Below are positions 1,887 to 43,387 of a stretch of 54,888 nucleotides of DNA, piece by piece; within the stretch, counting starts at the first letter, position 1, and every line of letters starts with the position of its first letter. The notes beneath the pieces were generated by a model. That model was not told the DNA's origin and searched no databases. It worked only from the letters and a program-made list of their open reading frames with translations. A program made the translations under genes and the position numbers. Source of the stretch: a virus; IMG/VR virus record IMGVR_UViG_3300033143_002805, positions 1 through 54,888 of that record; one strand, 5' to 3'.

Positions 1887-3110
1887 ATGCAACGCAGGCA
1901 GTTTTTAGTTGGTAGTGCTGCTGGTTTAGGCAGTATGGCGTCTCTGGGGAACGTTACTTTCTCCCAAGATCTCACCAAAAAAGAAGAGAACGCAGTTATT
2001 TTCTTATTCTTGGGCGGTGGAGCATCTTCTGTTGAACTCTTCAATCCTATTCCTACAGCTGATTCAACCCACAGATCCGTAACAGGTTACGTTAACACGA
2101 ACGTTCCCGGTATGGAATTGGGTGGGCTTTTCAAAGATTTAGCTAAATATGGGAATCGCATAGCTCTTTTCAGGGGATTTCATCACCGAGATGCTAATCA
2201 TTCGAGTGCCACTCACTGGGTAGTCACTGGACAATCGAATTTTGGGGCTGGTACAACGCAAAAGTGGCCGAGTTATGGCTCAGCGGCGTCAGGATGGCTC
2301 GGAACAAATGCACTTAACGGTCTGCCCACATATATTAAAATGAACAGCATAGCCCACGACGACGCGGCGTTCATGGGTGGTAAATTTGTCGGCTACGACG
2401 CCACCCAACAGGGTCGTAAGGATCTCCTGCTCAGTATGGAACTCAAGCGATTCGAAAAGCGGCTGAAATTCCTGTCAGTTATCGACAAAGACTTCGGCAA
2501 GGGCCAACGGCTAGCTGAACAGTGGACCGAATTGCGTGGACAGGCCGTAGAAATCGTAGCAGGAGACGCTTCTGAAGCGTTTAAAATAGAAGCAGATGAA
2601 GATTATGATGCTTTCAAGGAGGACACTCTTGGACGAGATGCTTTGACTGCTGTAAAGATAATTCAGGCAGGCTCTCGATTCGTGACGTTGAGCTATAATG
2701 GATGGGATATGCATAGTAATATTTTACAAGGGATGAACACAAGGCAACCTATACTAGATAAGTACATTGCTTTACTTCTTGATACTTTACGCAAAAGGGG
2801 AATGAATAAAAAGACCATGTTGGTAGTTACATCGGAGTTTGGTCGAACTCCTATCAATGCTAATGCTGGTCGTGATCACAACGCGAGAATTGGCAATCTA
2901 ATGATCGCTTGTGACTCATATGAAATGGGAAAAGTTGTCGGTTCAACTGACCCGCTGGGGACAGAGGCTACGGAAGGCCTATGTCAGCCAAAAGACTTAC
3001 GATGGACTATATTTGACCATTTACAAATGCCAAAAGAGATGAAGTGGACTGGATTAGATGGTCGACCGATGCACTTAGTAGAATCAGAGTCAAAGAATAT
3101 ACTTAAATAA
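1887..3110 (+). CDS. DUF1501 family protein with Tat-type signal
   Basis: 407 aa. The start MQRRQFLVGSAAGLG is a twin-arginine-type signal, followed by the DUF1501 hallmarks: FLFLGGGASSVELFNP, a PGMELGGLFKDLA segment, NHSSATHWVVTG, and near the C-terminus TSEFGRTP with GRDHNARIGN and VVGSTDPLG. DUF1501 proteins belong to the alkaline-phosphatase-like superfamily and are very common in Planctomycetota; activity is generally uncharacterised. The ATG follows GAGGATA. The length is close to the family norm. It is unusual in a phage and probably host-acquired. Confidence 0.85.
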   Translation: MQRRQFLVGSAAGLGSMASLGNVTFSQDLTKKEENAVIFLFLGGGASSVELFNPIPTADSTHRSVTGYVNTNVPGMELGGLFKDLAKYGNRIALFRGFHHRDANHSSATHWVVTGQSNFGAGTTQKWPSYGSAASGWLGTNALNGLPTYIKMNSIAHDDAAFMGGKFVGYDATQQGRKDLLLSMELKRFEKRLKFLSVIDKDFGKGQRLAEQWTELRGQAVEIVAGDASEAFKIEADEDYDAFKEDTLGRDALTAVKIIQAGSRFVTLSYNGWDMHSNILQGMNTRQPILDKYIALLLDTLRKRGMNKKTMLVVTSEFGRTPINANAGRDHNARIGNLMIACDSYEMGKVVGSTDPLGTEATEGLCQPKDLRWTIFDHLQMPKEMKWTGLDGRPMHLVESESKNILK

Positions 3111-10920: not shown

Positions 10921-11520
10921 ATGAGTTTTTGGGACATTGCAGGTGGTTTTGACAGCGGTATTTTCATCAACGGCGTGATGAGTGGTGTCGATAACGATCA
11001 AGGTGCTATCCGTTATGCGGGTACTAATATTGATGAAACCACCAAATGGTCAAACGTGGCACTAGGTGCTGGCAGTAGAGTTACTACCATAGTTTCTGGT
11101 ATTAACGGCATAAGTGGAATTTTGGGCGGTGGCATATTTAATGGTGGTGACCAAGTTATTCTACGTGTGACCACAGATATCGCTAACGTTGCCAATACCG
11201 TATTGTTGGCTGGTGCATCCAATTCTTCGAAGAACAGCACAATCCATCAAACAGCTAAAGTGTCTACACACTTTTACAAGACCGCTATTCGTACTAACAA
11301 GTGGAGTCAAATTTCTGGTGCATGGGAAGCCGGTTTCCCACTCGTAATTGATACGGGAGTGTGGGATCAAGCCACAGCTGCCGACGAAGCAGCTGATTTG
11401 CTAGCGAACAACACAGACAATGCAGCTAATCCAACAGCAGCTATTCCTGGTGAGTTTGTCTATCGTAATGGCAGCCCAACGCCTGTGCAAGACAACTATA
11501 AGGCAAAGACTGCATTTTAA
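10921..11520 (+). CDS. hypothetical Gly/Ala/Thr-rich protein, possible structural component
   Basis: 199 aa, no recognised domain. Low in charge, rich in Gly, Ala, Asn and Thr, with beta-prone stretches (GAGSRVTTIVSGI, DQVILRVTTDIANVANTVLLAG). This composition is common in virion proteins. A CGGAG ribosome site precedes the ATG. The roughly 65 bases before it hold a TAAATA element next to the start that may be a promoter, not verified. Confidence 0.6.
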   Translation: MSFWDIAGGFDSGIFINGVMSGVDNDQGAIRYAGTNIDETTKWSNVALGAGSRVTTIVSGINGISGILGGGIFNGGDQVILRVTTDIANVANTVLLAGASNSSKNSTIHQTAKVSTHFYKTAIRTNKWSQISGAWEAGFPLVIDTGVWDQATAADEAADLLANNTDNAANPTAAIPGEFVYRNGSPTPVQDNYKAKTAF

Positions 11521-12940: not shown

Positions 12941-15487
12941 ATGGGTGCATTTACCAATTCTTTTTCAGAAGAAACATGGTATCAAAAATACAAATTCGAA
13001 AATGATACGTGTGTTGAGGACACATGGGCGAGAGTTGCAAAAAACCTTGCATCAAAAGAAAGGTATAGCACTAAGTGGGATAAACGATTCTACTCAATAC
13101 TAAAAGATTTTAAATTTGTCCCAGGCGGACGAGTTACGTCCAACGCAGGAACAGGTCTACAGGGCACAACGCTGGTCAACTGTTTCGTCTCGGGTCCAAC
13201 AGGTAAAGATATAGACTCTATTGAGGGAATCTATGGTGAGCTACTTCGTCAGGCCCAAATCTTAAAGAGCGAAGGTGGTTACGGCTTTTGTTCTGATTTT
13301 ATGAGACCAAACGGGGCTCATATTCACGGTATTGCCAACCAATCTCCTGGTGCTGTAAAGTTCCTAGAGCTTTGGGATAAATCCTCCGAGATCATTACTG
13401 CCGGATCAAACAAGAAGGCCGAAAAGGGCGAAAAAAACTTCATTCGTAAGGGTGCCCAGATGGTCACGATGTCCTGCTGGCATCCCGATGTATTGGAATT
13501 TATAGTAGCAAAGAAAACCCCTGGCCGATTGACCAAATTCAACATGTCTGTCCTCTGCACTGACGAATTCATGGAAGCAGTAAAGAATGACGACCCCTGG
13601 CTCCTCAAGTTTCCCAACTACAAACTCTATCCCAAAGATTACAAAGAGTCTTGGGACGGAGACATTAATGTATGGGAAAAATTGATCCTAAGCAAGTACG
13701 ATCCCGAAGGCAAAGGAGACGACCTCTCAAGTATTGTCCTCTACGATACTCCAGTTAAGAAGGCCCGCGATCTCTGGGACTTGATAATGGAGAATACATA
13801 CAACCGAAATGAGCCGGGGGTACTGTTCGTAGACACTATGAACCGCATGAATAATCTAGGGTATGTAGAGAATATCAACGCGACCAATCCATGCGGAGAA
13901 CAGATACTCCCCATCGGAGGGGTGTGTCTACTTGGCTCTATTAACTTGGTTCACTTTATTGATCCTGATACTAAAGAATGGAAATGGGACGAACTAAAGG
14001 CTGCGATCCACGACGCTGTTCGTTTCATGGATAATGTGAACGATATCACTAATGTCCCCCTAAAATCTCAGAGGAAAAACCTCCAAGACAAGAGACGTAT
14101 TGGACTAGGTATTTTGGGATATGGCTCTGCATTGCTAATGGCTCGTATCAAGTATGGTAGCAAGAGAGCATTAGAAATGACCGAGAATCTTATGCAGGTT
14201 TTCACTAACGAAGCATATAAGACTTCGGCACTATTAGCCAAGGAAAAAGGTGCTTTTCCTCTCTATGATGAAGAGCAATATCTATCGGGCGAATTCATTA
14301 AACAGCTTGACCCTAAGACTATAGCTCTGATTAAGAAGCACGGAATACGTAATTCCCACCTGACTTCAATACAGCCAACCGGCAATAGTGCGTGCTTTGC
14401 GAATCTGCCCAGTGGTGGTCAAGAGCCGCTATTTATGCACGGCTACGTTCGTACAGCAATTCAGCCATCAGCTCCAGAGTTTTTACATGAACCTATTAAT
14501 ATAGATTGGGATAAAAAGAAGCACGAGAATATACAGGCAGAGGGTCAACCAGAGACTCATTGGAAATGGATTAAAGAAGGGGATGAAGACCTTCTAGCTA
14601 CTTTATTTGAAGGTAAAACCTGGAAATTTGATCGTAATCGTGGGCTTACAAAAGAAGAGTGGATTGAAGACTATGGGGTTTCATATTTAAAATCAGTTGA
14701 CAAATGGAATCCTGATGCTCAATGGGCGTCTTGCACTATGGATTTAGATGTAGATGCCCATATTAACACAATGTCAATCTTCGCAAAATGGGTAGATTCT
14801 GCCATCTCTAAGACTATTAACCTTCCCAATGAATATCCTTATGAAGATTTCAAGCTGGTGTATAAGAAGGCGTGGGCTAATGGCATTAAAGGATTTACGA
14901 CTTATAGGGCAGGTACAACAATCTCTGTTTTGGCAGCGGAATCCTCCTTATCTGACAACAAAGATAAGATCCGCAAGACAGTAGCCCCAGTCCGTCCGCG
15001 AGAGTTACCGTGTGATGTGTATCATATTAAGGTAAAAGGCGAGTCCTACTTCGTATTGGTGGGTATCTATAATGGTGACCCTTACGAGGTGTTCGCGGGC
15101 AAGAATGGATTCCTGGACAAAAAGGTTGTTAGTGGGACTATAATAAAGCTAGGTAAACCTAGGGGAGTATATAAGGTTATACTGTCGGATGGCCTAGAAT
15201 TATCACCCATAAATGCCACATGTTCTGCCGAAGAAGATGCTTTAACACGCATGACATCAACCGCCCTACAACACGGGGCCGACATGCACCTGATTGTAAA
15301 GCAGTTGGAGAAGGTTAAGGGAGATATGCATACTTTTGCCAGAAGTATGGCACGAGCAATCAAAAAATACATTCCGAATGGTGCAAAAGAAAATATTGCC
15401 TGTCCAGAATGTGAAGCGACAGATGGTTTAATTCGCCAGGAAGGGTGTATTACTTGTCTGTTATGTGGCTGGAGTAAGTGTGGGTAA
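12941..15487 (+). CDS. nrdJ: class II (adenosylcobalamin-dependent) ribonucleotide reductase
   Basis: 848 aa. N-terminal redox Cys in TLVNCFVSGP, the thiyl-radical finger NPCGEQILP in the middle, PTGNSACFANLPSGGQEP, and a C-terminal zinc/redox tail CPECEATDGL...GCITCLLCGWSKCG, which is diagnostic of monomeric NrdJ. It reduces ribonucleotides with coenzyme B12 and needs no NrdB or oxygen. GGAGG precedes the ATG. A class II enzyme suggests a host supplying cobalamin and possibly low-oxygen conditions. Confidence 0.93.
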   Translation: MGAFTNSFSEETWYQKYKFENDTCVEDTWARVAKNLASKERYSTKWDKRFYSILKDFKFVPGGRVTSNAGTGLQGTTLVNCFVSGPTGKDIDSIEGIYGELLRQAQILKSEGGYGFCSDFMRPNGAHIHGIANQSPGAVKFLELWDKSSEIITAGSNKKAEKGEKNFIRKGAQMVTMSCWHPDVLEFIVAKKTPGRLTKFNMSVLCTDEFMEAVKNDDPWLLKFPNYKLYPKDYKESWDGDINVWEKLILSKYDPEGKGDDLSSIVLYDTPVKKARDLWDLIMENTYNRNEPGVLFVDTMNRMNNLGYVENINATNPCGEQILPIGGVCLLGSINLVHFIDPDTKEWKWDELKAAIHDAVRFMDNVNDITNVPLKSQRKNLQDKRRIGLGILGYGSALLMARIKYGSKRALEMTENLMQVFTNEAYKTSALLAKEKGAFPLYDEEQYLSGEFIKQLDPKTIALIKKHGIRNSHLTSIQPTGNSACFANLPSGGQEPLFMHGYVRTAIQPSAPEFLHEPINIDWDKKKHENIQAEGQPETHWKWIKEGDEDLLATLFEGKTWKFDRNRGLTKEEWIEDYGVSYLKSVDKWNPDAQWASCTMDLDVDAHINTMSIFAKWVDSAISKTINLPNEYPYEDFKLVYKKAWANGIKGFTTYRAGTTISVLAAESSLSDNKDKIRKTVAPVRPRELPCDVYHIKVKGESYFVLVGIYNGDPYEVFAGKNGFLDKKVVSGTIIKLGKPRGVYKVILSDGLELSPINATCSAEEDALTRMTSTALQHGADMHLIVKQLEKVKGDMHTFARSMARAIKKYIPNGAKENIACPECEATDGLIRQEGCITCLLCGWSKCG

Positions 15488-15519: not shown

Positions 15520-15657
15520 ATGCCATTGTTCAATGGGGTTATAGCCGAATTCGTTAGAAAGCACAAATTAATTAAGCGTACTGCTCTCTTGGGTGGGGCT
15601 TTGGCTGGCTTATATTTCTTGGGAACTTCTCAGGGGTGGTGGGAATCTGCGTTCTAG
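15520..15657 (+). CDS. 45-aa single-span membrane protein
   Basis: Too short for usual calling but preceded by a perfect AAAGGAGG. The sequence begins MPLFNGVIAEFVRKHK and then has a hydrophobic Gly/Ala/Leu segment (LLGGALAGLYFLG) and a short Trp-rich tail. It opens the run of membrane proteins around the papain-like peptidase. A holin or antiholin role is possible but unproven. Confidence 0.6.
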   Translation: MPLFNGVIAEFVRKHKLIKRTALLGGALAGLYFLGTSQGWWESAF

Positions 15658-15688
15658 GAAGCTTTAGTATCAATGATTGGAGCAGACG

Positions 15689-16618
15689 ATGGCAAATGAT
15701 TACAATACTCCCGAAGAATTGCTGCATGCCTACCAAACCGGCCTAGCAGGAGCAGAGTGTGATCCAGAAGACTTAAAGGTACTTCTGGGTGAGCTGCCCA
15801 TGCCCGTGTTCGGAGCCGCAGCGTACGAGCTATACGAAAGCGGAGCTGGTAAGCTAAGTTTACCTTTTAAGTCCTTACTTAAGTTCGATCCGAACTTTGG
15901 CCCACTAGAACGTCAAACAACAGGTGACTGTGTATCCCATTCGACACGTAATGCGGTTGATATTACACGGGCAGTTGAGATTGACATCAAGGGTGAGTCA
16001 GAATCGTGGGAAGCAAGGGGAGCAACCGAGGCCATCTACCAGTCCAGAGGTCACAAGGGACAAGGAATGTCCTGCTCTGGTGCAGCCAGATATGTGAATA
16101 AGACTGGCGGTCTATTGATTAGAAAAGATTATGGCGATATAGATTTAAGTACTTACAACTCTACCGTTGGTATGAGACATCGTATCCCAAGTTCCATTTA
16201 CAAGTCAGAGGCACGTAAGCATCCAATCAATACTATCTCTTTGATTTCAACAGTCGAAGAGGCTCGTGATGCCTTAGCTAATGGTTATGCATTGTCATGT
16301 TGTAGTGGATTAGGCTTTTCATCTAATCGAGATAGTAAGGGTATTGCTAGACGATCTGGATCATGGAGTCATGCAATGGCATGGATAGCTTGCGACGATA
16401 CTAACGAGATTTACAAGGAGACATTGTTCTTAATCCAAAATAGCTGGGGAAAGTGGAATAGCGGCCCGAAACGTCATGGTCAACCTGACGGAAGCTTCTG
16501 GGTACGTGAGCGTGATGCCCGGTCTATTTTGAACTCTAGAGGTTCTTTTGCATTCAGTGATGTAGAAGGATTTCCAGCCAGACAACTACCACAGTACGGT
16601 CTAGGAGGATGGGTGTAA
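15689..16618 (+). CDS. papain-like (C1A) cysteine peptidase
   Basis: 309 aa. Catalytic order is as in papain: oxyanion Gln and nucleophile Cys in RQTTGDCVSHSTRN (about residues 78-83), His in GSWSHAMAWIACDD, and Asn in IQNSWGKWNSGP followed by PDGSFWVRERD. The NSWG block is diagnostic. No signal or transmembrane segment is seen. C1A peptidases are rare in phages. Lying among small membrane proteins it could cleave peptidoglycan cross-bridges, process virion proteins or attack a host protein. The ATG at 15689 follows TTGGAG; an upstream TTG start is less likely. Confidence 0.85.
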   Translation: MANDYNTPEELLHAYQTGLAGAECDPEDLKVLLGELPMPVFGAAAYELYESGAGKLSLPFKSLLKFDPNFGPLERQTTGDCVSHSTRNAVDITRAVEIDIKGESESWEARGATEAIYQSRGHKGQGMSCSGAARYVNKTGGLLIRKDYGDIDLSTYNSTVGMRHRIPSSIYKSEARKHPINTISLISTVEEARDALANGYALSCCSGLGFSSNRDSKGIARRSGSWSHAMAWIACDDTNEIYKETLFLIQNSWGKWNSGPKRHGQPDGSFWVRERDARSILNSRGSFAFSDVEGFPARQLPQYGLGGWV

Positions 16619-17385
16619 TGGGCAGCGAAAAAGCGAGAATGTGGCTTGGTATACTATTGATTGTTGTCGGCATTTTTTATAAGCCAGGGGAACCGACTCC
16701 TCCTGTTGTTGACAACAAGTTAAAAGAACCGGCAGCCGATATAGTAGTTCTAGTGAAAGACATTAGTATAAGCGACAACGCTGATTCAAGCAAGTTAGCT
16801 GGCATGTTTAATGCTATGTCAACCAAGCTGGACGGTACGACACTGAATAGTAATCTACAAGTTCAATACTTTATGAATGCGATAGGTAAGAATACATTCG
16901 GTAGCGAGTTGATGGACAATGGTAATTCAAAATATCCTAAGTTTGCTCCTGCTGTTGCAGAGGCTATGACTAGCATTTTAGGACCACAAACGGATACTAG
17001 TCCGGTCACAAGCGACAAAAAGCGTAAACTAGCTAGACTGTTCTACGGATTATCATGGAAATTATACAAGTCCAGTAACGATGAAGAGTACGAAGAGTAT
17101 AAAGCTAAGGCATTATCGGCAATTGCAGAGTATAATAAAGAAGACGAACCACTTCCTCCACCGGACAGTGAAGATTGTCCATGCGAAGGCAAGGGTTATA
17201 TTATTCATGGAGACGGACACCAAACGGATTGTCCATGTGTAGCGTCAGGTACAGACTGTGAGCACGATCCAAAGTGCGGGACTGGAGACTTACCTGATCT
17301 TTCAACCAACAAATCTTCTGGTTCACAAGTATACAAGACAACTCAACGAAGACGTGGAATATTGAGAGGTATATTTAGACAATGA
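16618..17385 (+). CDS. membrane-anchored protein with C-terminal Cys cluster
   Basis: 255 aa. A single N-terminal span (MWLGILLIVVGIFY) is followed by a proline-rich linker, a mostly helical domain and a C-terminal cysteine region DCPCEGKGYIIHGDGHQTDCPC, then CEHDPKCG and a basic tail. The ATG at 16618 is nine bases after AGGAGG and overlaps the peptidase stop (TAATG). The Cys pattern suggests a metal site or disulfide knot. It may anchor or regulate the peptidase; inference from context. Confidence 0.65.
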   Translation: MGSEKARMWLGILLIVVGIFYKPGEPTPPVVDNKLKEPAADIVVLVKDISISDNADSSKLAGMFNAMSTKLDGTTLNSNLQVQYFMNAIGKNTFGSELMDNGNSKYPKFAPAVAEAMTSILGPQTDTSPVTSDKKRKLARLFYGLSWKLYKSSNDEEYEEYKAKALSAIAEYNKEDEPLPPPDSEDCPCEGKGYIIHGDGHQTDCPCVASGTDCEHDPKCGTGDLPDLSTNKSSGSQVYKTTQRRRGILRGIFRQ

Positions 17386-17741
17386 CAACAATAGATGAAA
17401 AAATGTTGCCGTTGGCAACTAAGGTGTTGGAGGAGTCTAACTCCAAAGCAAAAGAAGATAGCCATCAAATCGACCCCATGACAATCCTTACGATTATCTC
17501 GCTGTTGATTAAACTGGCGACTTTCCTTTGGGAATGGTATAGACGAGATAAGGACAAGTTTGTTAAGTCCAATCAGCTAAATTTTATAATGAGATGGGTT
17601 GTTTGGAGACATGTTAAGAAGGATGTAGTAAATCGCAAGGACGCCAAATACATTTACGAAGGTATCTGTGGTATGGTGTATAAGTTTACGGATGACGACC
17701 GTAAAACTTTAATAGAAGTCATAACTGAAAAGGGTAAATAA
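17382..17741 (+). CDS. membrane protein, 119 aa
   Basis: One central span (MTILTIISLLIKLATFLWEW) flanked by an acidic N-terminus and a basic C-terminal half (YRRDKDKF, RHVKKDVVNRKDAK). Coupled by ATGA to the preceding gene. No family recognised; part of the membrane-protein cluster. Confidence 0.65.
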   Translation: MTTIDEKMLPLATKVLEESNSKAKEDSHQIDPMTILTIISLLIKLATFLWEWYRRDKDKFVKSNQLNFIMRWVVWRHVKKDVVNRKDAKYIYEGICGMVYKFTDDDRKTLIEVITEKGK

Positions 17742-17742
17742 T

Positions 17743-17922
17743 ATGAAACTTAAACTTCATGCGTTATTGCAATCTCGTAGATTTTGGGCAGCAGCAGCCG
17801 GTCTTTTGGCTGTGCTTGGCCAAGACTTGTTCGGAGTCGAGCTAGCAACAGAGCAATTAGTGTCTATAGCTTCTATCGTAGTGGCTTGGATCATTGGTGA
17901 CACTCTACGAGTAACTAAGTAA
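17743..17922 (+). CDS. holin-like small membrane protein, 59 aa
   Basis: Two hydrophobic segments separated by a short polar loop: SRRFWAAAAGLLAVLG, then EQLVSIASIVVAWIIGDTLR. The pattern SR-x-FWAA...IIG resembles small phage holin-family proteins. It begins one base after the preceding stop. It is the best holin candidate in the window, by layout and not by proof. Confidence 0.65.
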   Translation: MKLKLHALLQSRRFWAAAAGLLAVLGQDLFGVELATEQLVSIASIVVAWIIGDTLRVTK

Positions 17923-17940
17923 TAAGAGAGGGGCAAAGTT

Positions 17941-18267
17941 ATGGATCAGGTATTAGGATTCTTGAAAAACCTTGACACCTTTCAATACGTGCTTCTGGCG
18001 GCTGGTGCCTTCTTGTTATTCCCTACAGTTATAAAGTGGTGGAACGCAAAACCAGAAGATGATGTTGTAGACGATGTGGATCACGACGATCATAAGCACG
18101 AAACTGAGTTAAGTAGTCTAATATGTAAGTGGGAATGTCTGTGTGACTCCTGTCACAAGCGTGGCTTACATGGTGCCTGTGAAGCATTGCAGGCGGTTTT
18201 TCCAATGCTAGGTAAAATATATGAGGGAAAACACGATGTCGAAAAAGAGGGGATCGATCCAGAGTAG
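17941..18267 (+). CDS. membrane protein with Asp/His linker and Cys motif, 108 aa
   Basis: An N-terminal span (YVLLAAGAFLLFPTVIKWW) leads to an acidic linker DDVVDDVDHDDHKH and a soluble domain with CKWECLCDSCHKRG, a possible metal site. A GAGGGG ribosome site precedes the ATG. Function unknown. The next gene starts inside its last codons. Confidence 0.65.
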   Translation: MDQVLGFLKNLDTFQYVLLAAGAFLLFPTVIKWWNAKPEDDVVDDVDHDDHKHETELSSLICKWECLCDSCHKRGLHGACEALQAVFPMLGKIYEGKHDVEKEGIDPE

Positions 18268-18427
18268 GATTGTTGATAGCTTTTTGAAAGAGCTTGGAGT
18301 CTCCCGCGAGCAAGTCGACAAGATGACTCAGCTCTGGGAGACAGTGGATGTGCAAAAAAATGATGACGGGATTGTCATTAATATCAAGTTGAAAAACATC
18401 CAGGTTAAGATCGAAACTGACAATTAA
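18236..18427 (+). CDS. hypothetical protein, 63 aa
   Basis: Small charged protein beginning MSKKRGSIQSRIV, ending in a beta-like IVINIKLKNIQVKIE. GAGGG lies upstream of the ATG at 18236; the ORF extends to an ATG at 18221. It overlaps the 17941 gene by 32 bases in another frame and is followed by a terminator. Confidence 0.55.
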   Translation: MSKKRGSIQSRIVDSFLKELGVSREQVDKMTQLWETVDVQKNDDGIVINIKLKNIQVKIETDN

Positions 18428-18431
18428 CGAT

Positions 18432-18460
18432 AAGGGGTTGTGGTAACACGGCCCCTTTTC
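18432..18460 (+). terminator. Rho-independent terminator
   Basis: AAGGGG pairs with CCCCTT, with an inner GTG/CAC pairing in the loop, followed by TTTTC. It closes the membrane-protein/peptidase unit. Confidence 0.75.
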
Positions 18461-18482: not shown

Positions 18483-18511
18483 TCTGAAATTGGCTAGAAA
18501 GCCGCTATAAT
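18483..18511 (+). promoter_or_regulatory. possible promoter with perfect -10 box
   Basis: TATAAT at 18506-18511 lies after the terminator and about 145 bases before the next secure gene. The -35 position 17 bases upstream reads TCTGAA, a poor match, so a housekeeping promoter is uncertain. A phage sigma factor is encoded at 39289 and could use a different -35. The leader that follows contains a hairpin with arms CATGCC/GGCATG (18585-18602). Confidence 0.3.
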
Positions 18512-20829: not shown

Positions 20830-21263
20830 TGGCAAAAGAACAGTCGGATTTAAGTCGCTATCCTTCTCGCTATGCCCCAAGGGGTTGGGTTCACGCTGGA
20901 CAATATGCAGCGGAACTTATTTGTGAGAAGTATGCCAAAACCAAAAACAAAGAACTCCCCCTGCGGTTTTGGGAGTTACCGGATTGGAAGAAGTACTATC
21001 AATATCAGGTCATACTTGCGAGTAGACTGATTAAGAAGTATGGAGAACATCCAGTGATAGCGGCTCTAAATGACAAGCGAACTTACAAGACGTATTCATT
21101 AAGAGGAGGCTGGTTCGTCAAGGTAGTAGAGGACTACCATACTAAGGCCGAGCTTGCTAAGAAGATTGCCCATAAAGTTTCTTATGATTTTTCAGAGAAG
21201 AAAACCTTTGAAAGCAATAACCAAAAGAAATCAGTAATCTCCAAGCTTAGGGACTTAGAATGA
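20829..21263 (+). CDS. hypothetical protein, 144 aa
   Basis: Basic, helical, rich in Tyr and Trp (PRGWVHAGQYAAELICEKYAK, WELPDWKKYYQYQVILASRLIKKY). No known domain recognised. It sits directly before the recombinase (ATGA overlap) and may be a loader or mediator for it; that is inferred from position only. Confidence 0.6.
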   Translation: MAKEQSDLSRYPSRYAPRGWVHAGQYAAELICEKYAKTKNKELPLRFWELPDWKKYYQYQVILASRLIKKYGEHPVIAALNDKRTYKTYSLRGGWFVKVVEDYHTKAELAKKIAHKVSYDFSEKKTFESNNQKKSVISKLRDLE

Positions 21264-23305
21264 GCAAAGGCGAATTTGCAAAAGACATAGTAAAAGAGTA
21301 TGGCGACGTCCTACATGATGCAGCGTATATCATTGACAATCCGCCAGCTATAATTCCGTTATCACCTAAATTAGACATAGCCTTGGGGGGCGGCGTTCCC
21401 GAAGGCTCTTTGTTTATTATGACTGGTCAAGAAAAAGTAGGAAAAGATCAGCCGTTAGATGCTATGGTGCATACTCCTGTCGGACCCAAGAAAATGGGCG
21501 ATATAAAAGTGGGAGACGAAGTATTGTCTCCTAGTTCTGATAGTGGTATAGCAAAAGTAGTAGGGGTCTTTCCACAAGGACTACAGGATGTTTATCGAGT
21601 TCATTTTTCAGACAGGACTTATACTGACTGCGGACTAAACCATTTATGGCATGTCGCCAACGAGCGATGGAAACAGTCTAAAGTTATTCCATTAAAAGAG
21701 ATCCTGTATGACTCTTTGTTTCGTAAAAACAAGCAGTACAAGACAGCAAAATATTCTGTTCCTATGGTACCCTGTGTCTACGCAACCCAGAAGGTTAGCA
21801 TGCATCCTTATTTGATGGGATGTTTAATTGGAGATGGAACATTAAAAAAGAAAACTGTTTGTATCACCAATATTGATCAAGAGCTACTTGATAGGATACG
21901 TGACATATTAGATCCAGCCTATGAGCTATACCAAGATAAGACTGATCCTATTACATATAGGATTACTCGATTAGATCGTAAATATTCTGCAAAACAAAAA
22001 CATAAATATCTTGAGATGTTAAGAACATATGACTTAGCGGGTGTCAAAAGTAAGTTCAAGTTTATTCCACCAGAATACAAATATAACTCTACGACGGTTA
22101 GATTTGCGATTGTTCGTGGACTTATGGATACCGATGGAACCGTAGATAAGAAAGGTAAGGTGTCTTTTTCAAGCTCGTCTTTGTTGCTGGCTGAAGATCT
22201 TGCAGAAGTAGTTAGGTCTCTAGGATATAAATGTAAACTATTTAAACGCTTTACCACATGCAATGGTAAAAAATTTAAGTCCTATTTATGTTATATCTCA
22301 GGGCCTCGTCTATCGGAATTATTTAAACTTACTAGAAAACGGGCGAGATGTAAGCCACGATCATATACCGCTCATAGAAAAATAGTAGACATAGAATATA
22401 TAGAGAAAAAGGAAACTCAATGTATTCAAATAGATAATCAAGGTGGACTTTACTTTACAGACTACCATATCGTTACACATAATACCGTTACTGCCCTGCA
22501 ATTCTGTAAGAATGCACAGAAGGCTAGACTAGAGGATGGTTCTCGACGTAAGATCGTCTACGGGAACATTGAAGGCCGACTTAAGAAAAGAGACTTAGAA
22601 GGAGTGTCTGGTCTCGACTTAGACCCTGACTACTTTCGTATTATAGGATCAACTAAGGGAAATATTCTATCCGGTGAAACGTATCTGTCTATCATTGATA
22701 ATATAGTCCACCAAATTCCCCATGCTGTAGCAGTGATTGATTCATTCTCGGCATTGGCATCAGAGAAAGAATTGACAGACGACATTAAAGATTCACAAGT
22801 AGCAGTCATGCAAAAATTTATCGCTAAGTTCACTCGTCGGTTTGCTAATGTCTTACCGATTAACCGCGTAACTCTTGTAGGTGTCACTCACATTATGGCA
22901 AACATTGGTGCTATCGGCCATGCTAAAAAGAGGGTGGAGAAATCCGGCTTTGCTTTAAAGTATGCACAGGACGTGAAGCTGTTTGCTACACACAAGAAGC
23001 CTATGATGCGTGGGGATCAACAAATTGGGCAAGAGATTCATTGGATCGTAGAAAACACCGCGACCAATACCCCTCCTGGCCAGAAGGTAATCAGCTATAT
23101 GAAATATGGTCGTGGCATCTGGGAAGAATACGAGCTTGCAGAAATAGCAAAAGACTTTGGTATCATCCAAGGTAAAAGCTGGTTTACCCTTCCAGGTACT
23201 GATAAAAAAATACAAGGCATGATTAATGTGGCAGCATATCTAGAAGAAGAGCCTTCTGCTTATGAAGACATTAACCAACAGGTACGAGAACTAACAGGAC
23301 TATGA
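21260..23305 (+). CDS. RecA/UvsX-like recombinase precursor, interrupted by an intein
   Basis: 681-aa precursor. N-extein residues 1-62 end in the Walker A core GQEKVGK; the Thr completing GK-T is residue 409, after the intein. The C-extein carries Walker B AVAVIDSFSAL and the L1/L2-region ATPase core (VGVTHIMANIGAIGHAKK). Spliced length is 335 aa, within the phage RecA/UvsX range. It promotes strand exchange. The intein sits inside the ATP site, so only spliced protein can work. Start coupled by ATGA. Confidence 0.9.
   Translation: MSKGEFAKDIVKEYGDVLHDAAYIIDNPPAIIPLSPKLDIALGGGVPEGSLFIMTGQEKVGKDQPLDAMVHTPVGPKKMGDIKVGDEVLSPSSDSGIAKVVGVFPQGLQDVYRVHFSDRTYTDCGLNHLWHVANERWKQSKVIPLKEILYDSLFRKNKQYKTAKYSVPMVPCVYATQKVSMHPYLMGCLIGDGTLKKKTVCITNIDQELLDRIRDILDPAYELYQDKTDPITYRITRLDRKYSAKQKHKYLEMLRTYDLAGVKSKFKFIPPEYKYNSTTVRFAIVRGLMDTDGTVDKKGKVSFSSSSLLLAEDLAEVVRSLGYKCKLFKRFTTCNGKKFKSYLCYISGPRLSELFKLTRKRARCKPRSYTAHRKIVDIEYIEKKETQCIQIDNQGGLYFTDYHIVTHNTVTALQFCKNAQKARLEDGSRRKIVYGNIEGRLKKRDLEGVSGLDLDPDYFRIIGSTKGNILSGETYLSIIDNIVHQIPHAVAVIDSFSALASEKELTDDIKDSQVAVMQKFIAKFTRRFANVLPINRVTLVGVTHIMANIGAIGHAKKRVEKSGFALKYAQDVKLFATHKKPMMRGDQQIGQEIHWIVENTATNTPPGQKVISYMKYGRGIWEEYELAEIAKDFGIIQGKSWFTLPGTDKKIQGMINVAAYLEEEPSAYEDINQQVRELTGL
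21446..22483 (+). mobile_element. class 3-type LAGLIDADG intein in the recombinase Walker A motif
   Basis: 346 aa (precursor residues 63-408), inserted between Lys62 and Thr409. The first residue is Asp, not Cys/Ser (DQPLDAMVHTPVG). It has the class 3 Trp-Cys-Thr set: block B HLW (Trp130), block F QCIQID (Cys388) and THN (Thr406-His407-Asn408), with Thr at +1. The endonuclease has two dodecapeptides, GCLIGDG and RGLMDTDG, so homing is probably intact. In class 3 splicing the block F Cys attacks first. Confidence 0.88.
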
Positions 23306-28361: not shown

Positions 28362-30362
28362 ATGGGTATCCCTATAATCTTCTTTCGTAGCAGTTCGTTT
28401 AATTGCCACAGATTCTGTCCGATGCAATTTTATGCCGAGTATACATTAGGCATGAGGGGACCATCAAATAAGAAAGCAGATAAAGGGACTATCGTTCATA
28501 AAATACTGGAGATATGTGCTTTATGCAAAAAGGCTTTGCAAGATGATATCCCCGAGATAGAAGACGAGGAGATCGGGGCAGTACTCACTGATAACTATGA
28601 CCCAGAATATATGTCCTCGATTGCTTCTAGGGTATATCACCACTATACCGCTGATCTGACACATCATAGCTGGGGTGAAAAAGACTTTAAGGATTGTGTT
28701 AACTGGACCTGGAAGGCTCTAAAGTATAACGACGGAATGTTCGATCCACGTTACCGTAACGTGGTTGATGCCGAACCTCACTTCAACTTTGAGCTACCCT
28801 TCGATTGGGCCGAATATGATTATCCTGAGCAAGGACTCAAGGGAAAACTCGGACTCAAGGGTACAATTGACTTGATCACTGACCTGGGCGATGGCGTTTA
28901 CGAAGTGGTCGATTGGAAGGGGTTGCCTACCGATACTCCTATTCCAACAATCGAGGGTTGGAAAACAATGGGAACATTGACAATAAATGATATTGTCTTC
29001 GATAAAGACGGTAATCAAACTAAGGTTGTTGGCAAGTCTAAAAAAAGCTACAAAGAATGTTATGAAATTGAATTTGATGATAAAACTAAAGCCATCTGTG
29101 ATTATGAGCATCTATGGCTGCTAGACAATGATGACGTGGTAGATGCTCCGAATTTAAAGGTTGGTGACAAGATTGACGTGGCAGGTCCACTCGATACTGA
29201 CTACGTAGACTTACCTATAGATCCATACGTGCTGGGTGCTTGGCTTGGCGATGGCCGAAACCGTAGTATGGAAATTACGTCTGGTGATAGCTTTATATTC
29301 AATGAAATAGAAGATCGAGGCTATCAGGCAGGAACAGATATTAATCACTCAACGTCAGATTGTCGTACTAGTACTATTTTGGCTCAAACCCATAATCTAA
29401 GAAAACTAAATCTGTTACATAACAAACATATCCCCTTGGTATATCTGAGAGCTTCATACTCTCAAAGACTAGACTTGCTTAGAGGACTAATGGATACCGA
29501 TGGCAATGTGAACAGCGTCAGGAAACAAGCTGTGTTTACGACCTGTAATAAAAAGTTGTCGAATGATGTGAAAGAGCTACTACTGAGTCTTGGACAAAGG
29601 GTTAATCAATCTACGATAGTTAGAGATACAAACTTTAAAAAGAACGTAACAGTTTATCCTCTAGCGTTTCGACCCCTAAACCTTAACCCGTTTTTAATGC
29701 CTAGAAAATCGGACAGGATTAATGCCGACTGGGGTCCAGGTCGATCAAATAAGCGTATGATTAAGAAAATAACCAAGTTAGCTACCAATCTAGAAACTCA
29801 ATGCATTATGGTAGATAGCCCATCCAATACTTATCTTTGTACTAAAAATATGATCCCTACTCACAATACAGGCAGGCGGCTAGATTGGGCGACAGGTAAG
29901 ACCAAGGATCAGGTAAAGCTATTTTCTGATCCCCAACTCAGACTTTACCACTATGCTGTTAAGCAGATGTATCCTCACGTACACAGCTTCCTCATTACTA
30001 TATATTTTATTAACGATGGTGGAGCGTTCACTGTTCATTTTCAAGATTCAGACCTAGAAAAGACAGAAGCAATTATTAAGCGTCGGTTTGAAGCTATTCG
30101 AGATACCCAGCAGCCATTGCGAATCAAAGAGACTGACCCCAAGCAAACATGGAAATGTCACAAGCTATGTCATGCTGGCATGACTACGTTTGAGGACACT
30201 CATGTTCAGTCTATTGAACGCTATGGTAAGCCAATGAGCAAGTGCGATCAGATGAAACAGGTAATAGCTCAGAAGGGTATCGAGTGGGTTACTAAAAACT
30301 ATGCCCACCCTGATCATAAGCATGGGTCATATGGAGAGGGTGGTGGGAAGGTGCAACCGTAA
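28362..30362 (+). CDS. Cas4/RecB-like PD-(D/E)XK nuclease precursor with intein
   Basis: 666-aa precursor, about 350 aa after splicing. Motif I GTIVHKILE follows an N-terminal Cys-rich entry (CHRFCPMQFY). Motifs II/III are GTIDLITDLGDGVYEVVDWK plus TGRR, with the catalytic Lys186 just before the intein. QLRLYHYAV is the QxxxY motif. C-terminal cysteines (WKCHKLCHAG, CDQ) may join the N-terminal ones in an iron-sulfur cluster, as in Cas4/AddB; this is inferred. Probably a recombination exonuclease next to the recombinase. Confidence 0.82.
   Translation: MGIPIIFFRSSSFNCHRFCPMQFYAEYTLGMRGPSNKKADKGTIVHKILEICALCKKALQDDIPEIEDEEIGAVLTDNYDPEYMSSIASRVYHHYTADLTHHSWGEKDFKDCVNWTWKALKYNDGMFDPRYRNVVDAEPHFNFELPFDWAEYDYPEQGLKGKLGLKGTIDLITDLGDGVYEVVDWKGLPTDTPIPTIEGWKTMGTLTINDIVFDKDGNQTKVVGKSKKSYKECYEIEFDDKTKAICDYEHLWLLDNDDVVDAPNLKVGDKIDVAGPLDTDYVDLPIDPYVLGAWLGDGRNRSMEITSGDSFIFNEIEDRGYQAGTDINHSTSDCRTSTILAQTHNLRKLNLLHNKHIPLVYLRASYSQRLDLLRGLMDTDGNVNSVRKQAVFTTCNKKLSNDVKELLLSLGQRVNQSTIVRDTNFKKNVTVYPLAFRPLNLNPFLMPRKSDRINADWGPGRSNKRMIKKITKLATNLETQCIMVDSPSNTYLCTKNMIPTHNTGRRLDWATGKTKDQVKLFSDPQLRLYHYAVKQMYPHVHSFLITIYFINDGGAFTVHFQDSDLEKTEAIIKRRFEAIRDTQQPLRIKETDPKQTWKCHKLCHAGMTTFEDTHVQSIERYGKPMSKCDQMKQVIAQKGIEWVTKNYAHPDHKHGSYGEGGGKVQP
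28920..29867 (+). mobile_element. class 3-type LAGLIDADG intein in the RecB-like nuclease motif
   Basis: 316 aa (residues 187-502), between catalytic Lys186 and Thr503. It begins GLPTDTPIPT, so residue 1 is Gly. Block B reads EHLWLL (Trp252), block F QCIMVD (Cys481) and the end PTHN (Thr500-His501-Asn502), with Thr at +1: the complete Trp-Cys-Thr set. Endonuclease motifs LGAWLGDG and RGLMDTDG are present. It shares little sequence with the recombinase intein outside motifs, so the two are probably separate arrivals. Confidence 0.88.
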
Positions 30363-30364
30363 AT

Positions 30365-30931
30365 ATGGATAAGCAAAGTGATAGGTGGTATGCCGAAACA
30401 GCAAGACATAATAAGCATTGGAATGATAAAGAAAAGGTTTATTTAAAAAAGAACTACACTAAGCTTAGTATAGATGAGTTAATGGAAGATATGGGCCGTA
30501 CCGCTCGCTCAATTCATATGGCAGCTTATAAGTTAGGGATCAGTCGTGAAAAAATCTTGGTGATAGATGGTACTAAGAAATGTTCAACATGCCTTAAAAT
30601 TTTACCTATTGGTGAGTTTCATCTATCTTCTAATAATAAAGTTACAGGACTACGTTCTGACTGTAAGGATTGCGTTCGAAATCAGACCTATCTTAGAAAA
30701 TATGGTATAACTCTTAAACAATATGAATCTATGTTAAAAGATCAAAATCACAAATGTTATATTTGTAATAATAAAAGAAATGGAGAAATTGTATTTAATA
30801 TCGATCATTGTCATACTACGGGCAAGATTCGTAAGATACTATGTAATGGCTGCAACCGAGCCTTGGGCTTTTTTTTAGATCGTTCTGACTGGATGCGAAG
30901 AGGTGCTAACTATGTGGAGGAATATAGCTAA
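30365..30931 (+). CDS. HTH-endonuclease VII fusion, probable free-standing homing endonuclease
   Basis: 188 aa. N-terminal SANT/Myb-like HTH (WNDKEKVYLKKNYTKLSIDELM then GRTARSIHMAAYKLGI), then a zinc pair CSTCLK...CKDC and an endonuclease VII core: KYGITLKQYESMLKDQ, CYICNNK, FNIDHCHTTGKIR, LCNGCNRALGFF. The gene is visibly more A/T-rich than its neighbours. It lies squeezed between the intein-bearing nuclease and dnaE, suiting a mobile endonuclease. Confidence 0.78.
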   Translation: MDKQSDRWYAETARHNKHWNDKEKVYLKKNYTKLSIDELMEDMGRTARSIHMAAYKLGISREKILVIDGTKKCSTCLKILPIGEFHLSSNNKVTGLRSDCKDCVRNQTYLRKYGITLKQYESMLKDQNHKCYICNNKRNGEIVFNIDHCHTTGKIRKILCNGCNRALGFFLDRSDWMRRGANYVEEYS

Positions 30932-32823
30932 TGAAAACATACATACCACTCCACTGCCACTCCGAGTACAGTCTATTAGATGGACTATCTAAATGTCAAG
31001 CTATAGTAGAGCGTACCCTGGCTATTGGTGCCACGGCTTGTGCTCTAACAGATCACGGTAGCGTGTCTGGTGCTGTAGACTTTGCTGGCAAGATGAAAGA
31101 GAAAGGCTTGAAGCCTATCTTGGGCTCTGAGTTCTATGTATGTCGTGGTCTAGTAACGCAGAAAGATAAAGAAAATCGCCCGCTAGATCACCAAGTAATA
31201 CTAGCTAAGAATCATCAAGGCTGGAAAGATTTACTAGGCCTTACTTCCTTCGCGAATAAAAAAGAACACAGCTACTATAAGCCGCGTCTTGATATTGACG
31301 CTATAGCTAAAGCTGGCAGTCAAAAAAACCTTATATCATTCAGCGGTCACTTAGGGTCTATCTTAGCCAATGCTATTACTGATGGAGATAGACTTGATCC
31401 CGACTGGATGAAAAAGGGTATTGCATGTTCAAAGAACTTAGAGAACATATTCGGCAAAGGTAACTTCTTCATTGAGATTCAGCTTATTGACTCAAAGATA
31501 AATATCTTCGCAGGAGTAGTCGCTAAGGCTTTGAGACAGATCGCGGTCAAAACCGGCATTCCCTGTCTCGCTACACCCGACGCTCACTACTGCTCTAGAG
31601 ACGACGCAGAGGATCAACAGGTGTTGCTCTGCACGAATTTTAAAAAGAGTATAGGGCAAGTACACCGAGAATTAAAACAGGGCACGGCAAACAACACCCT
31701 GGCTACATTTTTCAAGTCGAACAACTATCACATCCCATCATATGAGGACATGATTGAGTTTCACACCGAAGCAGAGTTAGTGAACACACGAGTTGTTGAG
31801 GACATGTGCGAGAACTACAATATCTTACGTTCTCCTGATCCTCCCAAGTTTTCGTGTCCTAAAGGTATGGACCCAAATGAGTACTTGAGATATCTATGCC
31901 GCACAGGATGGGCAAGTAGAATGAGTCATATTGATAGTGACTCTGATAAATTTCCATCCTATGGAGAACGAATTAATCTTGAACTAGACATATTTACTAG
32001 TATAGGTTTATCTAGTTACTTCTTAATTGTAGATGACATACTTAGATTTACACGCAGTCGTGGCTATCTTACTGGCCCTGGACGTGGATCGAGTGCTGGC
32101 TGTATGGTATCCTACTTGTTAGGAATCACTCAGATCGAACCCATCAGATACAACCTTATCTTCGAACGATTCTATAATGCTGGACGTAATACGCCCGGCA
32201 AGATATCGTGGCCGGATATTGATTTCGATGTTCCTAAAGCTGCAAGGGATGAAATTGTCGAATACGTCCGCAATAAGTACGGAGCAGATAATGTAGCTCA
32301 GATTGTGACATTCCAAACCCTCAAGGGGCGGGCCTCACTTAAGCGAGTTATGAGTGCGAGAGGCAACATATCTTTCGATGAGCAGAACGCGATCACTAAG
32401 AACATTGTGGATGAGAGCAAGATCGCGGACGAGCTGGGCGACATCAAGGCCGAGTATGGTATCTCGTCCGTCATCCTCTGGGCTTTGGAAAATAACTCTG
32501 GCAAGCTTAAAGAGTGGTGTACAATTGGAGAAGGAGGTAAGCTAGAAGGTCGTATGGCTAAAATTTTTGAACAAGCCATTAGGCTAGAGGGAACTAAGAT
32601 TATCTCGGGTAAGCACGCTGCGGGCATTGTTATTTCGGCCCAACCGATTAGTGAATCCTGTCCGATGGTCTTAGATAAACAGGGGCAATATCAACTGGCC
32701 GGATTTGAAGGGCCAAGTTGCGAGGATGTTGGGCTACTTAAGCTGGACTGTCTCGGACTTTCTGCACTAGACAAACTTATGGACGCGGCCAAGATCGCGT
32801 CGGGAGAAGATGATGTCGACTAG
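30931..32823 (+). CDS. dnaE: DNA polymerase III alpha (DnaE-type), N-terminal half of a split polymerase
   Basis: 630 aa. N-terminal PHP domain (HCHSEYSLLDGLS, ALTDHGSVSGA, ATPDAHY). Palm domain: GPGRGSSAGCMVSYLLGIT, PDIDFDV (Asp429/Asp431) and GLLKLDCLGL with the third metal Asp (about 606). The frame then ends after 24 more residues, before the fingers, which are encoded at 37642. GGAGG precedes the ATG. Both halves together are 1171 aa, close to full-length DnaE. Confidence 0.9.
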   Translation: MKTYIPLHCHSEYSLLDGLSKCQAIVERTLAIGATACALTDHGSVSGAVDFAGKMKEKGLKPILGSEFYVCRGLVTQKDKENRPLDHQVILAKNHQGWKDLLGLTSFANKKEHSYYKPRLDIDAIAKAGSQKNLISFSGHLGSILANAITDGDRLDPDWMKKGIACSKNLENIFGKGNFFIEIQLIDSKINIFAGVVAKALRQIAVKTGIPCLATPDAHYCSRDDAEDQQVLLCTNFKKSIGQVHRELKQGTANNTLATFFKSNNYHIPSYEDMIEFHTEAELVNTRVVEDMCENYNILRSPDPPKFSCPKGMDPNEYLRYLCRTGWASRMSHIDSDSDKFPSYGERINLELDIFTSIGLSSYFLIVDDILRFTRSRGYLTGPGRGSSAGCMVSYLLGITQIEPIRYNLIFERFYNAGRNTPGKISWPDIDFDVPKAARDEIVEYVRNKYGADNVAQIVTFQTLKGRASLKRVMSARGNISFDEQNAITKNIVDESKIADELGDIKAEYGISSVILWALENNSGKLKEWCTIGEGGKLEGRMAKIFEQAIRLEGTKIISGKHAAGIVISAQPISESCPMVLDKQGQYQLAGFEGPSCEDVGLLKLDCLGLSALDKLMDAAKIASGEDDVD

Positions 32824-37512: not shown

Positions 37513-37642
37513 AAGCCTGTGTACGTTTTTCGCCTTAACCAACTTAGGACTGTTCGCATATAATGGACTAGCATTGAATTTATATATTGGAATAGTTATG
37601 GTTGTGTGGGTTGTTGTACTAGAGTTTATAGGGAAACATTAA
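37493..37642 (+). CDS. 49-aa membrane protein upstream of dnaE-C
   Basis: Short ORF overlapping the VOC frame by 20 bases and the polymerase ATG by one (TAATG). Two hydrophobic segments, LCTFFALTNLGLFAY and LYIGIVMVVWVVVLEFI. It may be translationally coupled to dnaE-C, whose own ribosome site is weak. Confidence 0.5.
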   Translation: MKIETSKSLCTFFALTNLGLFAYNGLALNLYIGIVMVVWVVVLEFIGKH

Positions 37643-39267
37643 TGAAGGAAACAGTAACATTTGATTGCGGCTGTACCTTTAATGTTAACGAGAAAGGTCT
37701 GCCAGTATTCGAACCATATCTAGATAAGATCAGACTGACCTGTCCTGCTACTTGGGACATGATCTGCGAAGGTAACACTAAGGGCGTCTTTCAGCTAGAG
37801 TCACAGCTAGGTCAAAGTATGGCCTCTCAAACTGCTCCTCGACATATGGAAGAGCTGTCAGACCTCATTAGCATCATGCGACCTGGATGTCTTGAGGCTA
37901 TAGTAGAGGGAAAGAACCTGTCCACTCACTACATAGACCGCAAAGCTGGACGTGATTCAGTTAGCTACTTTCACCCTGCCTTGGAGCCAATCCTTGAGAA
38001 TACATACGGCATCCTGGTATATCAAGAGCAGGCCCTAGGCATTGCTAGGCAAATCGCGGGGTATAATTTACAGGAAGCGGAGCTACTGAGGAAAGCCATT
38101 GGTAAGAAGAAGATTCAACTTATGGCTAAGGTTAAAGCCGAGTTCTTTGACAAGGCTGTGGGCTTCGGAATCATTAATCTAGAAGAAGCAGAGGAAATAT
38201 TTAGCTGGATTGAGAAATCTCAACGGTACTCATTTAATAAAAGTCACGCTATAGCCTATGCTCATAACGGCTACCTAACAGCTTTTACAAAAGCCCACTT
38301 TCCCCTGGCCTTTTTTACCGCTTGGTTGCGACACGCGAAGGGAAAGCAAAACCCGCACATGGAAATTCAAGACCTTGTGAACAATGCTCGCCTGATGGAC
38401 ATTGATATCGTTCCTCCGAGTATTTTGAACATGAATCGAGTATTTAAATTAATTGATAACAAACCTACGTACGGAATTACTGACATAAAAAGAGTAGGCA
38501 GTTCAGTTTTCGACCAAATTCGTGGTGTAATAAAGAACAACAAATATGATTTAGCGGGATTTACCTGGGACGTGTTCCTGATGAAGATGGGGCGAATCAT
38601 TAAATCTGACTCCTTTAAAGCTATAATATTGGCTGGGGCCTTAGACTGCTATAAAGTTTCTCGTATGAAGATGATATATGATCTGGAGTTGTATCGAGAG
38701 TTTAGAGATTCTGACCGTAAATACCTAGAGACTGTAAAATGCAGTACATTTAAAGACGGCCTAGAACAAATCTTAACCAAAAAGATACCTCACGAAAGAC
38801 GCACAGCTCACACAGACCGCTTTATTGAACTTACCCGTAGCTCCATGAGAGCGTTAGACAACCCGCCTTATCAACTGGTAGACAGCCCCGCCTGGATAGC
38901 TAAGCAGGAGCGAGAGTATCTAGGTATCGCCTTGACATGTACTGAGATTGACGAGCACGATATCGGTGACGCCAACTGTACCTGTCGAGATTATGCACAA
39001 GGATTTAGTTCTCACTCTATTGCTATAGCTGTTAAGGTAGATGACTTGCGAGAATGGAAAATCAAAAAAGGAAAGAGCAAAGGAGAAACAATGGCTTTCT
39101 TAAAAGTGAGTGATGGAACATGCTCCTTAGATAACGTAACTATGTTCCCAGAAGCTTGGGAGAGGTACTGTCAAGACATACGTATTGGAAGTTTGCTATT
39201 GCTGCGAGGACAACGCGATAAGAATCGTGGAAGTTTTCTAGTAATGCGTGTTAAAAAGTTAACGTAA
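37642..39267 (+). CDS. dnaE: DNA polymerase III alpha (DnaE-type), C-terminal half of a split polymerase
   Basis: 541 aa. After a short CxC segment (FDCGCTFNV) comes the DnaE fingers: NTKGVFQLESQLGQSM, LISIMRPGCLEAI, HYIDRKAG, ENTYGILVYQEQ, RKAIGKKK, FNKSHAIAYA. Then the helix-hairpin-helix (YGITDIKRVG), beta-binding region and an OB-fold tail (LKVSDGTCSLDNVTMFPEAW). It starts just where the upstream half stops. No intein sequence is at either junction. Confidence 0.9.
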   Translation: MKETVTFDCGCTFNVNEKGLPVFEPYLDKIRLTCPATWDMICEGNTKGVFQLESQLGQSMASQTAPRHMEELSDLISIMRPGCLEAIVEGKNLSTHYIDRKAGRDSVSYFHPALEPILENTYGILVYQEQALGIARQIAGYNLQEAELLRKAIGKKKIQLMAKVKAEFFDKAVGFGIINLEEAEEIFSWIEKSQRYSFNKSHAIAYAHNGYLTAFTKAHFPLAFFTAWLRHAKGKQNPHMEIQDLVNNARLMDIDIVPPSILNMNRVFKLIDNKPTYGITDIKRVGSSVFDQIRGVIKNNKYDLAGFTWDVFLMKMGRIIKSDSFKAIILAGALDCYKVSRMKMIYDLELYREFRDSDRKYLETVKCSTFKDGLEQILTKKIPHERRTAHTDRFIELTRSSMRALDNPPYQLVDSPAWIAKQEREYLGIALTCTEIDEHDIGDANCTCRDYAQGFSSHSIAIAVKVDDLREWKIKKGKSKGETMAFLKVSDGTCSLDNVTMFPEAWERYCQDIRIGSLLLLRGQRDKNRGSFLVMRVKKLT

Positions 39268-39288: not shown

Positions 39289-39735
39289 ATGGATAAATTA
39301 ATTGAGCAACACATGCCCCTTGTGGCATCCATAGTCAATAATTTTGAACCCAAAAACAATACCGAACGAGAGGACTTACTAGATGCGGGACGAATTGGGC
39401 TCTGGAAAGCATTGCGAAAGTTCGATCCCGCTCATGGCAGTATGGTCTCTACCTATGCGTGGCGACCTATTCAATGGGCCATTATCCGTGAAATTAAAAA
39501 CAGACAGCGTAACGTGTCTCTAGATGATGTTGCACCCCCTTCTGTTAGAACCCCCGAAAGGATATGGGAGTACTACCCTAGCGACATGACTGACCAAGAA
39601 AAGCAGTTAATTGAGCTGCGATGCGAAGGGTATAAGTTTCGCGAGATATGCGAGATAGTTAATGAGACACCTTCCACGGTAAAAAACCGCTTCTATAAGG
39701 CGATAAGGAAAATCAAAGAAGGAAACCATGCATAG
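39289..39735 (+). CDS. sigma-70 family RNA polymerase sigma factor
   Basis: 148 aa. Region 2 core: REDLLDAGRIGLWKALRKFDP...STYAWRPIQWAIIREIK. Region 4 HTH: MTDQEKQLIELRCEGYKFREICEIVNETPSTVKNRFYKAIRKI. It is a compact ECF-like layout and probably redirects host RNA polymerase to phage promoters. AAGG precedes the ATG. Overlaps the glycosyltransferase by 8 bases. Confidence 0.88.
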   Translation: MDKLIEQHMPLVASIVNNFEPKNNTEREDLLDAGRIGLWKALRKFDPAHGSMVSTYAWRPIQWAIIREIKNRQRNVSLDDVAPPSVRTPERIWEYYPSDMTDQEKQLIELRCEGYKFREICEIVNETPSTVKNRFYKAIRKIKEGNHA

Positions 39736-43382: not shown

Positions 43383-43387
43383 TAAAA

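Follow-up and report, generated by a model that had tools for sequence, protein, structure and literature searches.

We hold with moderate confidence that a tightly packed gene run in the virus record IMGVR_UViG_3300033143_002805 serves the phage as a cassette for lysis (envelope attack), with a C1-type (papain-like) cysteine peptidase in place of the usual peptidoglycan hydrolase. Such a cysteine-peptidase lysis or envelope-attack module had been proposed in the original prediction from the letters of the sequence, and it is favoured by the gene order in prophages, the anchors or export signals of the prophage homologs and a conserved partner of holin size, whereas the supposed rarity of such an enzyme among phages proved wrong (see below). 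The record is linear and comprises 54,888 bases, and the window analysed here is the whole of it. Since it has no end repeats and its relatives reach 130-174 kb, it probably represents only part of a larger phage genome, and the missing endolysin within the window alone is therefore no evidence: the earlier remark that neither lysozyme nor amidase was seen there holds for the window's own proteins, among which no wall hydrolase was found, but is uninformative by itself.

The module spans the region from the ribonucleotide reductase (RNR) gene (12941-15487) to a terminator-like hairpin, and its genes, all on the plus strand, overlap or almost touch each other. The peptidase gene (15689-16618, coding 15689-16615) likely starts with the ATG at 15689, giving a protein of 309 aa without a signal peptide, rather than with the TTG at 15677. 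It is followed by the gene for a 258-aa anchored protein (16609-17385), which consists of an N-terminal hydrophobic anchor, an all-helical domain (about residues 30-152) and a Cys-rich domain of the pattern CPCxGxGxxxHGDGHxTxCPC (GDGH domain), and then by ORFs for a 119-aa protein with one central span (17382-17741), a 59-aa holin-like protein with two hydrophobic stretches (17743-17922), a 108-aa protein with an N-terminal span and a Cys-containing soluble part (17941-18267), and a 68-aa, probably soluble protein (18221-18427) with relatives in some loci. Upstream of the peptidase gene, an ORF for a 45-aa single-span protein (15520-15657) is preceded by an AAGGAGG-type site; it is poorly conserved and, being present in only three loci, it is uncertain as a gene and doubtful as a part of the module. 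Of the membrane proteins originally thought to flank the peptidase, the Cys-rich anchored protein and those of 119, 59 and 108 aa are conserved, whereas the 45-aa protein is poorly so and the 68-aa product is probably soluble. The run is closed, as predicted, by the hairpin at 18432-18457 (plus strand; 11 pairs, then TTCTATTACT), 5 bases past the last stop. Behind it, a sigma-70-like site at 18484-18511 on the plus strand, recognised by its consensus match only (10/12), is possibly the start of the next unit.

The residues of a C1A active site, Q76, C81, H228 and N251, the Asn lying in a QNSWG motif, are present as the original prediction had it and are invariant in all of the 136 virus-type homologs aligned, a degree of conservation that rules out a chance match. 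Gln and Cys are five residues apart in the peptidase and six in the aligned cathepsin (a one-residue gap), as judged from a profile of distant homologs whose match to the cathepsin site is weak (E = 0.011). The structure prediction called for as a check likewise gave a positive answer: AlphaFold2 (41 alignment rows) returned a model with a pTM of 0.81 and a pLDDT of 76, for which Foldseek found 115 chains at E ≤ 0.001 among solved structures, with xylellain (3ois) and procathepsins as best matches (E = 1e-7 to 1e-5) and moderate TM-scores (0.4-0.6). Single-sequence searches with the window peptidase against Pfam, PHROGs and PDB gave no match. In particular, with respect to the Pfam model PF00112 (Peptidase_C1, cut-off 20.7 bits), the window protein is not matched and its ortholog in the 174-kb relative G005 stays below the cut-off with 18.2 bits, while the distant homolog L088 passes it with 26.3 bits. 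Based on the active-site residues, the predicted fold, the alignment to the cathepsin site and the passing of the Pfam cut-off by L088, the window protein is to be regarded as a C1-type peptidase that has diverged past the Pfam threshold, its activity being predicted from sequence and model.

In IMG/VR, 357 confirmed stretches encode relatives of the peptidase when a single sequence is used as the query, and at least 555 confirmed stretches do so when an alignment is used. The enzyme is thus not rare in phages, though no relative of it is found in 50,697 described phage records, and two prophage C1 homologs are likewise without relatives in described phages. The viruses that carry it, with one copy per large virus record, are uncultured, mostly marine phages, and also include several that are integrated in planctomycete bacteria. 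A scan of GTDB genomes yielded eight loci with kin of the peptidase, of which three, closely akin to the viral family, were binned with archaea or SAR202 and are probably misplaced phage contigs; the other five come from Mucilaginibacter (two), Flexithrix (one) and a single Thermoguttaceae MAG (two). Among the Planctomycetota, 17 of 392 genomes searched had a match. Some of the weak matches are peptidases of other kinds, e.g. L195 with YEATS domains, and many of the strong ones adjoin the same partner families as in the viruses, several of them in clear prophages. Contamination of the window contig by bacterial DNA was rejected, since 89 virus loci with complete flanks contain the same module.

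Of these 89 loci, which are related so that the counts are not independent, 87 contain the anchored helical domain; the numbers for the GDGH domain and for the 108-aa-type protein are the same, and every locus has a small hydrophobic protein of holin size. The latter comes in two types: type A, the 59-aa protein of the window, located downstream of the peptidase, is present in 53 loci and type B (75 aa, upstream) in 35, with both types in one locus and neither in none. They are mutually exclusive in 88 of the 89 loci (type A being found in 54 altogether), a split that partly tracks clades, so that 53/35/1 does not amount to 89 independent events. Type A has a weak PHROG holin match (E = 0.0015), and type B has no significant match.

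The linkage of the partners to the peptidase is also evident from 3,727 ORFs of the fetched loci, a set that takes in hundreds of kb of sequence remote from the peptidase. Within 4 kb of it lie 134 of the 137 members of the helix family and 128 of the 131 members of the GDGH family, the latter counted with a loosened Cys-motif pattern because a stricter version under-counted. For the 119-aa protein, 72 of 75 relatives are located within the same distance. The remaining three helix and three GDGH cases are in loci without a called peptidase ORF, and none is distant from a peptidase of the same locus. In the window the 258-aa protein combines both domains (profile matches of 1.6e-41 for helix and 1.7e-34 for GDGH); in many relatives they are encoded by two separate genes, with products of 156 and 136 aa in G005. 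The helical domain, predicted with a pTM of 0.86 and a pLDDT of 92, has no solved relative according to a PDB fold search (best E 2.3). A hydrophobic N-terminus is present in all 117 viral helix proteins, and in some prophages the helix and GDGH partners are lipoprotein-like, with lipoboxes on helix proteins.

The module is kept while its surroundings shift, RNR being located upstream in some loci and downstream in others. In marine phages it stands beside nucleotide-metabolism genes (e.g. RNR) and not beside morphogenesis genes, which speaks against a function in lysis, as do the Mucilaginibacter homologs (35-37%), found outside any phage context. Both observations, together with the absence of an N-terminal span in all 126 viral C1 proteins read, would suit a cytosolic protease for host takeover or counter-defence, cutting a host protein inside the cell while the membrane neighbours serve a separate function. 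We consider this unlikely, as the same anchored partner families are kept across virus and planctomycete-prophage members despite the rearranged surroundings, and as anchors or export signals occur on several of the prophage homologs, namely an N-terminal span in those of pPLIM01, L184, L185, L199/L206, L189/L208 and L193 and a Tat-like signal in L088. For the lysis cassette, in turn, the missing signal of the viral peptidase implies that access to the periplasm rests on a weakly identified holin.

Prophage gene order adds a further line of evidence. The cultured species P. limnophila has two copies of the module, one on the complete circular 37-kb phage-plasmid pPLIM01 and one on the chromosome. 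The plasmid-borne C1 gene is located at 1184-2218 of NC_014149, and its catalytic Cys belongs to the motif NQGTGDC. The order on pPLIM01 is anchored protein, C1 peptidase, anchored protein, HNH, TerL, portal, head protease and capsid (MCP), and in L203 it is helix protein, C1 peptidase, signal-bearing proteins and TerL, so that the peptidase gene again lies upstream of TerL. In L206, presumably the P. limnophila chromosome since the same genome has the pPLIM01 sequence as a second contig, TerL and portal are followed by a span-bearing helix/holin-like protein, the C1 peptidase, an anchored protein and tail-side genes, the latter assigned by eye and including a 990-aa protein of tape-measure size without a BLAST match. 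In both L206 and L208 the module is thus found between the head-side and the tail-side genes of the morphogenesis operon. The S-R-Rz lysis genes of phage lambda are located just upstream of the terminase, and the Y-K-lysABC genes of P2 between head and tail genes. By analogy, the prophage modules occupy lysis-type slots (before TerL in pPLIM01 and L203, between portal and tail-side genes in L206), which is not the case in the marine phages. A role as head-maturation protease was rejected, as pPLIM01 has a ClpP-type one of its own.

The positions in L206 and L208, and likewise that in Thermoguttaceae just before tail-type genes, would also fit a virion-associated or entry protease, packaged or tail-borne, which cuts envelope or surface proteins at infection while its small neighbours modify the infected cell, e.g. 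by superinfection exclusion. This seems rather unlikely: the N-terminal spans or Tat-like signal of prophage homologs would be odd for a part of the capsid or tail, the partners are membrane-anchored and not virion-like, and the large marine phages encode the module on the opposite strand from their structural genes.

If the module is a lysis cassette, a small hydrophobic protein, either type A at 17743 as in the window or type B upstream elsewhere, would open or depolarise the inner membrane late in infection, and the signal-less 309-aa peptidase would then escape to the periplasm; in the prophage relatives, export would rely on the N-terminal anchor or Tat-like signal of the enzyme itself. 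Once in the periplasm, the peptidase might cleave peptide bonds on which the cohesion of the envelope depends, be it in the stem or cross-link peptides of the peptidoglycan or in wall proteins that bear load. The two kinds of anchored protein, with the helical domain and with the Cys-rich GDGH domain, might act as its membrane partners, i.e., as spanin-like proteins, as tethers or as regulators or inhibitors of the peptidase. The holin function of the small protein, the periplasmic action of the enzyme, lysis as the outcome, the substrate and the roles of the partners are what we infer for this cassette.

With respect to ordinary wall-cutting enzymes, no member of a known peptidoglycan-degrading family was found in the cassette, and the peptidase itself is not matched by the CHAP and NlpC/P60 models. 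The original prediction had suggested looking for a canonical endolysin in the rest of the genome, a finding that would refute it. None of seven families was detected in pPLIM01 or in 19 large related records of 77-174 kb, namely Amidase_2, phage lysozyme, CHAP, NlpC/P60, SLT, M23 and M15_4, searches that all gave matches in control genomes. An eighth search, for GH19, had no match anywhere, controls included, and thus counts for nothing; neither the window nor five related records contained GH19/lysozyme motif signatures. On pPLIM01, 24 Pfam families were recognised among 40 scanned proteins (E ≤ 0.001), and no wall hydrolase was among them. For G005 (174 kb), the scan covered 93 proteins, excluding enzymes that were recognisable as such and ORFs cut by a piece boundary; among the matches listed are a terminase, a tape measure and cement and fibre proteins, but no wall hydrolase.

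A divergent endolysin may nevertheless be present, which is a point against the lysis reading. In that case an unrecognised peptidoglycan hydrolase elsewhere in the genome would lyse the cell, and the module would act as an accessory that only removes wall or outer-membrane proteins in a spanin-like final step. A new hydrolase family could indeed escape profile searches, planctomycetes have true peptidoglycan (PMC4432640), and in five relatives there was one first-look GH19 candidate per genome, none at E 0.001 and with the controls also blank. We nevertheless regard this alternative as distinctly unlikely, given that the Pfam list of the complete pPLIM01 offers no candidate and that the lysis slot is taken by the C1 gene itself, whose neighbour is holin-sized or anchored.

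A DUF1501 gene with a Tat-like N-terminus is located at 1887-3110 of the window. Together with the kinship of the modules it makes a planctomycete or related host likely for the window's phage, as far as gene content can tell. Planctomycete walls have been described as proteinaceous with disulfide bonds (PMC2754498; for Isosphaera, PMC3072084), whereas P. limnophila and other planctomycetes have lysozyme-sensitive peptidoglycan, on which an ordinary endolysin would work (PMC4432640). Taken together, these reports leave either substrate, a peptidoglycan peptide or a wall protein, possible for the peptidase. A more far-reaching and tentative suggestion, to which we give less than even weight, is that proteolytic lysis by a C1 peptidase and an anchored complex, without any peptidoglycan glycosidase or amidase, is used by planctomycete prophages and by a large group of uncultured phages, most of them marine. 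If the lysis reading is right, planctomycete phages and this large phage group would have a candidate lysis system in the module, with a protease in the role of an endolysin instead of a classic peptidoglycan hydrolase, and the target of the enzyme would bear on what holds the planctomycete envelope together. Protein families without known function, one of them without a PDB fold match, are named here as linked to it.

In the literature on papain-like endolysins, on C1 peptidases with holins and on planctomycete endolysins, no such system was found described. The peptidase resembles family C1 of MEROPS clan CA (papain; bacterial xylellain) in its Gln/Cys/His/Asn residues, its NSWG motif and its predicted fold, but it differs in the shorter Gln-Cys spacing, in escaping PF00112 and in having its own N-terminal region without a recognised propeptide. 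Among phages, C1A peptidases in BFVD (from uncultured Caudovirales and Streptomyces phage Shady) share the C1-type fold, but they are only 13-19% identical and no common module was seen. CHAP and NlpC/P60 are papain-like endolysin domains of the same broad fold class with a role in phage lysis; in contrast to them, the peptidase is unmatched by their models, and its Foldseek matches to lysins are weak (E ≥ 0.0019). The pseudomurein endoisopeptidases PeiP and PeiW are cysteine-peptidase lysis enzymes of methanogen viruses whose hosts have an unusual wall, but as members of family C71 they are set apart by family description. A close parallel in organisation is provided by the S-R-Rz/Rz1 and Y-K-lysABC cassettes of lambda and P2, with which the module shares a compact arrangement of a small hydrophobic protein, membrane-anchored partners and a single hydrolase, soluble or signal-anchored, and, in prophages, the same map positions before the terminase or between head and tail genes. 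It departs from them in that its partners match no known spanin, its holin call is weak, and its hydrolase is a C1-type peptidase where no glycosidase or amidase was found.

With respect to the replication and recombination genes of the window, the DNA polymerase III alpha is split over two ORFs (30931-32823 and 37606-39267), which lie 4.8 kb apart and match consecutive stretches of a single PHROG profile (positions 42-614 and 622-1054, respectively), and at the ends of these ORFs no obvious intein sequence was seen. The RecA/UvsX-like recombinase (21260-23305) and the exonuclease (28362-30362) both have mid-protein profile matches in common with terminase and primase profiles, and appear to be interrupted by intein-like insertions.

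The minus strand at 49315-54744 codes for a Cys-rich repetitive protein of 1809 aa that had no family match and is probably a virion or fibre protein. Also virion-like is a beta-rich 199-aa protein (10921-11520), whose counterparts in the relatives comprise 199-220 aa and are often located about 1 kb upstream of the peptidase module. The run of glycosyltransferase-like and nucleotidyltransferase-like genes at 39728-46620 is longer in the 174-kb relative G005.

Predicted exported proteins, which are unusual in phages, are represented by a lipoprotein-like thioredoxin (1414-1842) and an adjoining DUF1501 protein with a Tat-like N-terminus (1887-3110); DUF1501 was also found in relatives. In G005, a single MotA/TolQ/ExbB family match, together with three consecutive span proteins near 20-21.7 kb (loci L139/L140, about 19.9-21.7 kb), suggests a putative phage-encoded proton-channel-like pair.

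Outside phages, homologs of the peptidase with 35-37% identity occur in two Mucilaginibacter loci (L085, 8001-8771; L086, 8001-8783). With neither phage neighbours nor module partners around them, these represent the same peptidase family in chromosomal use.
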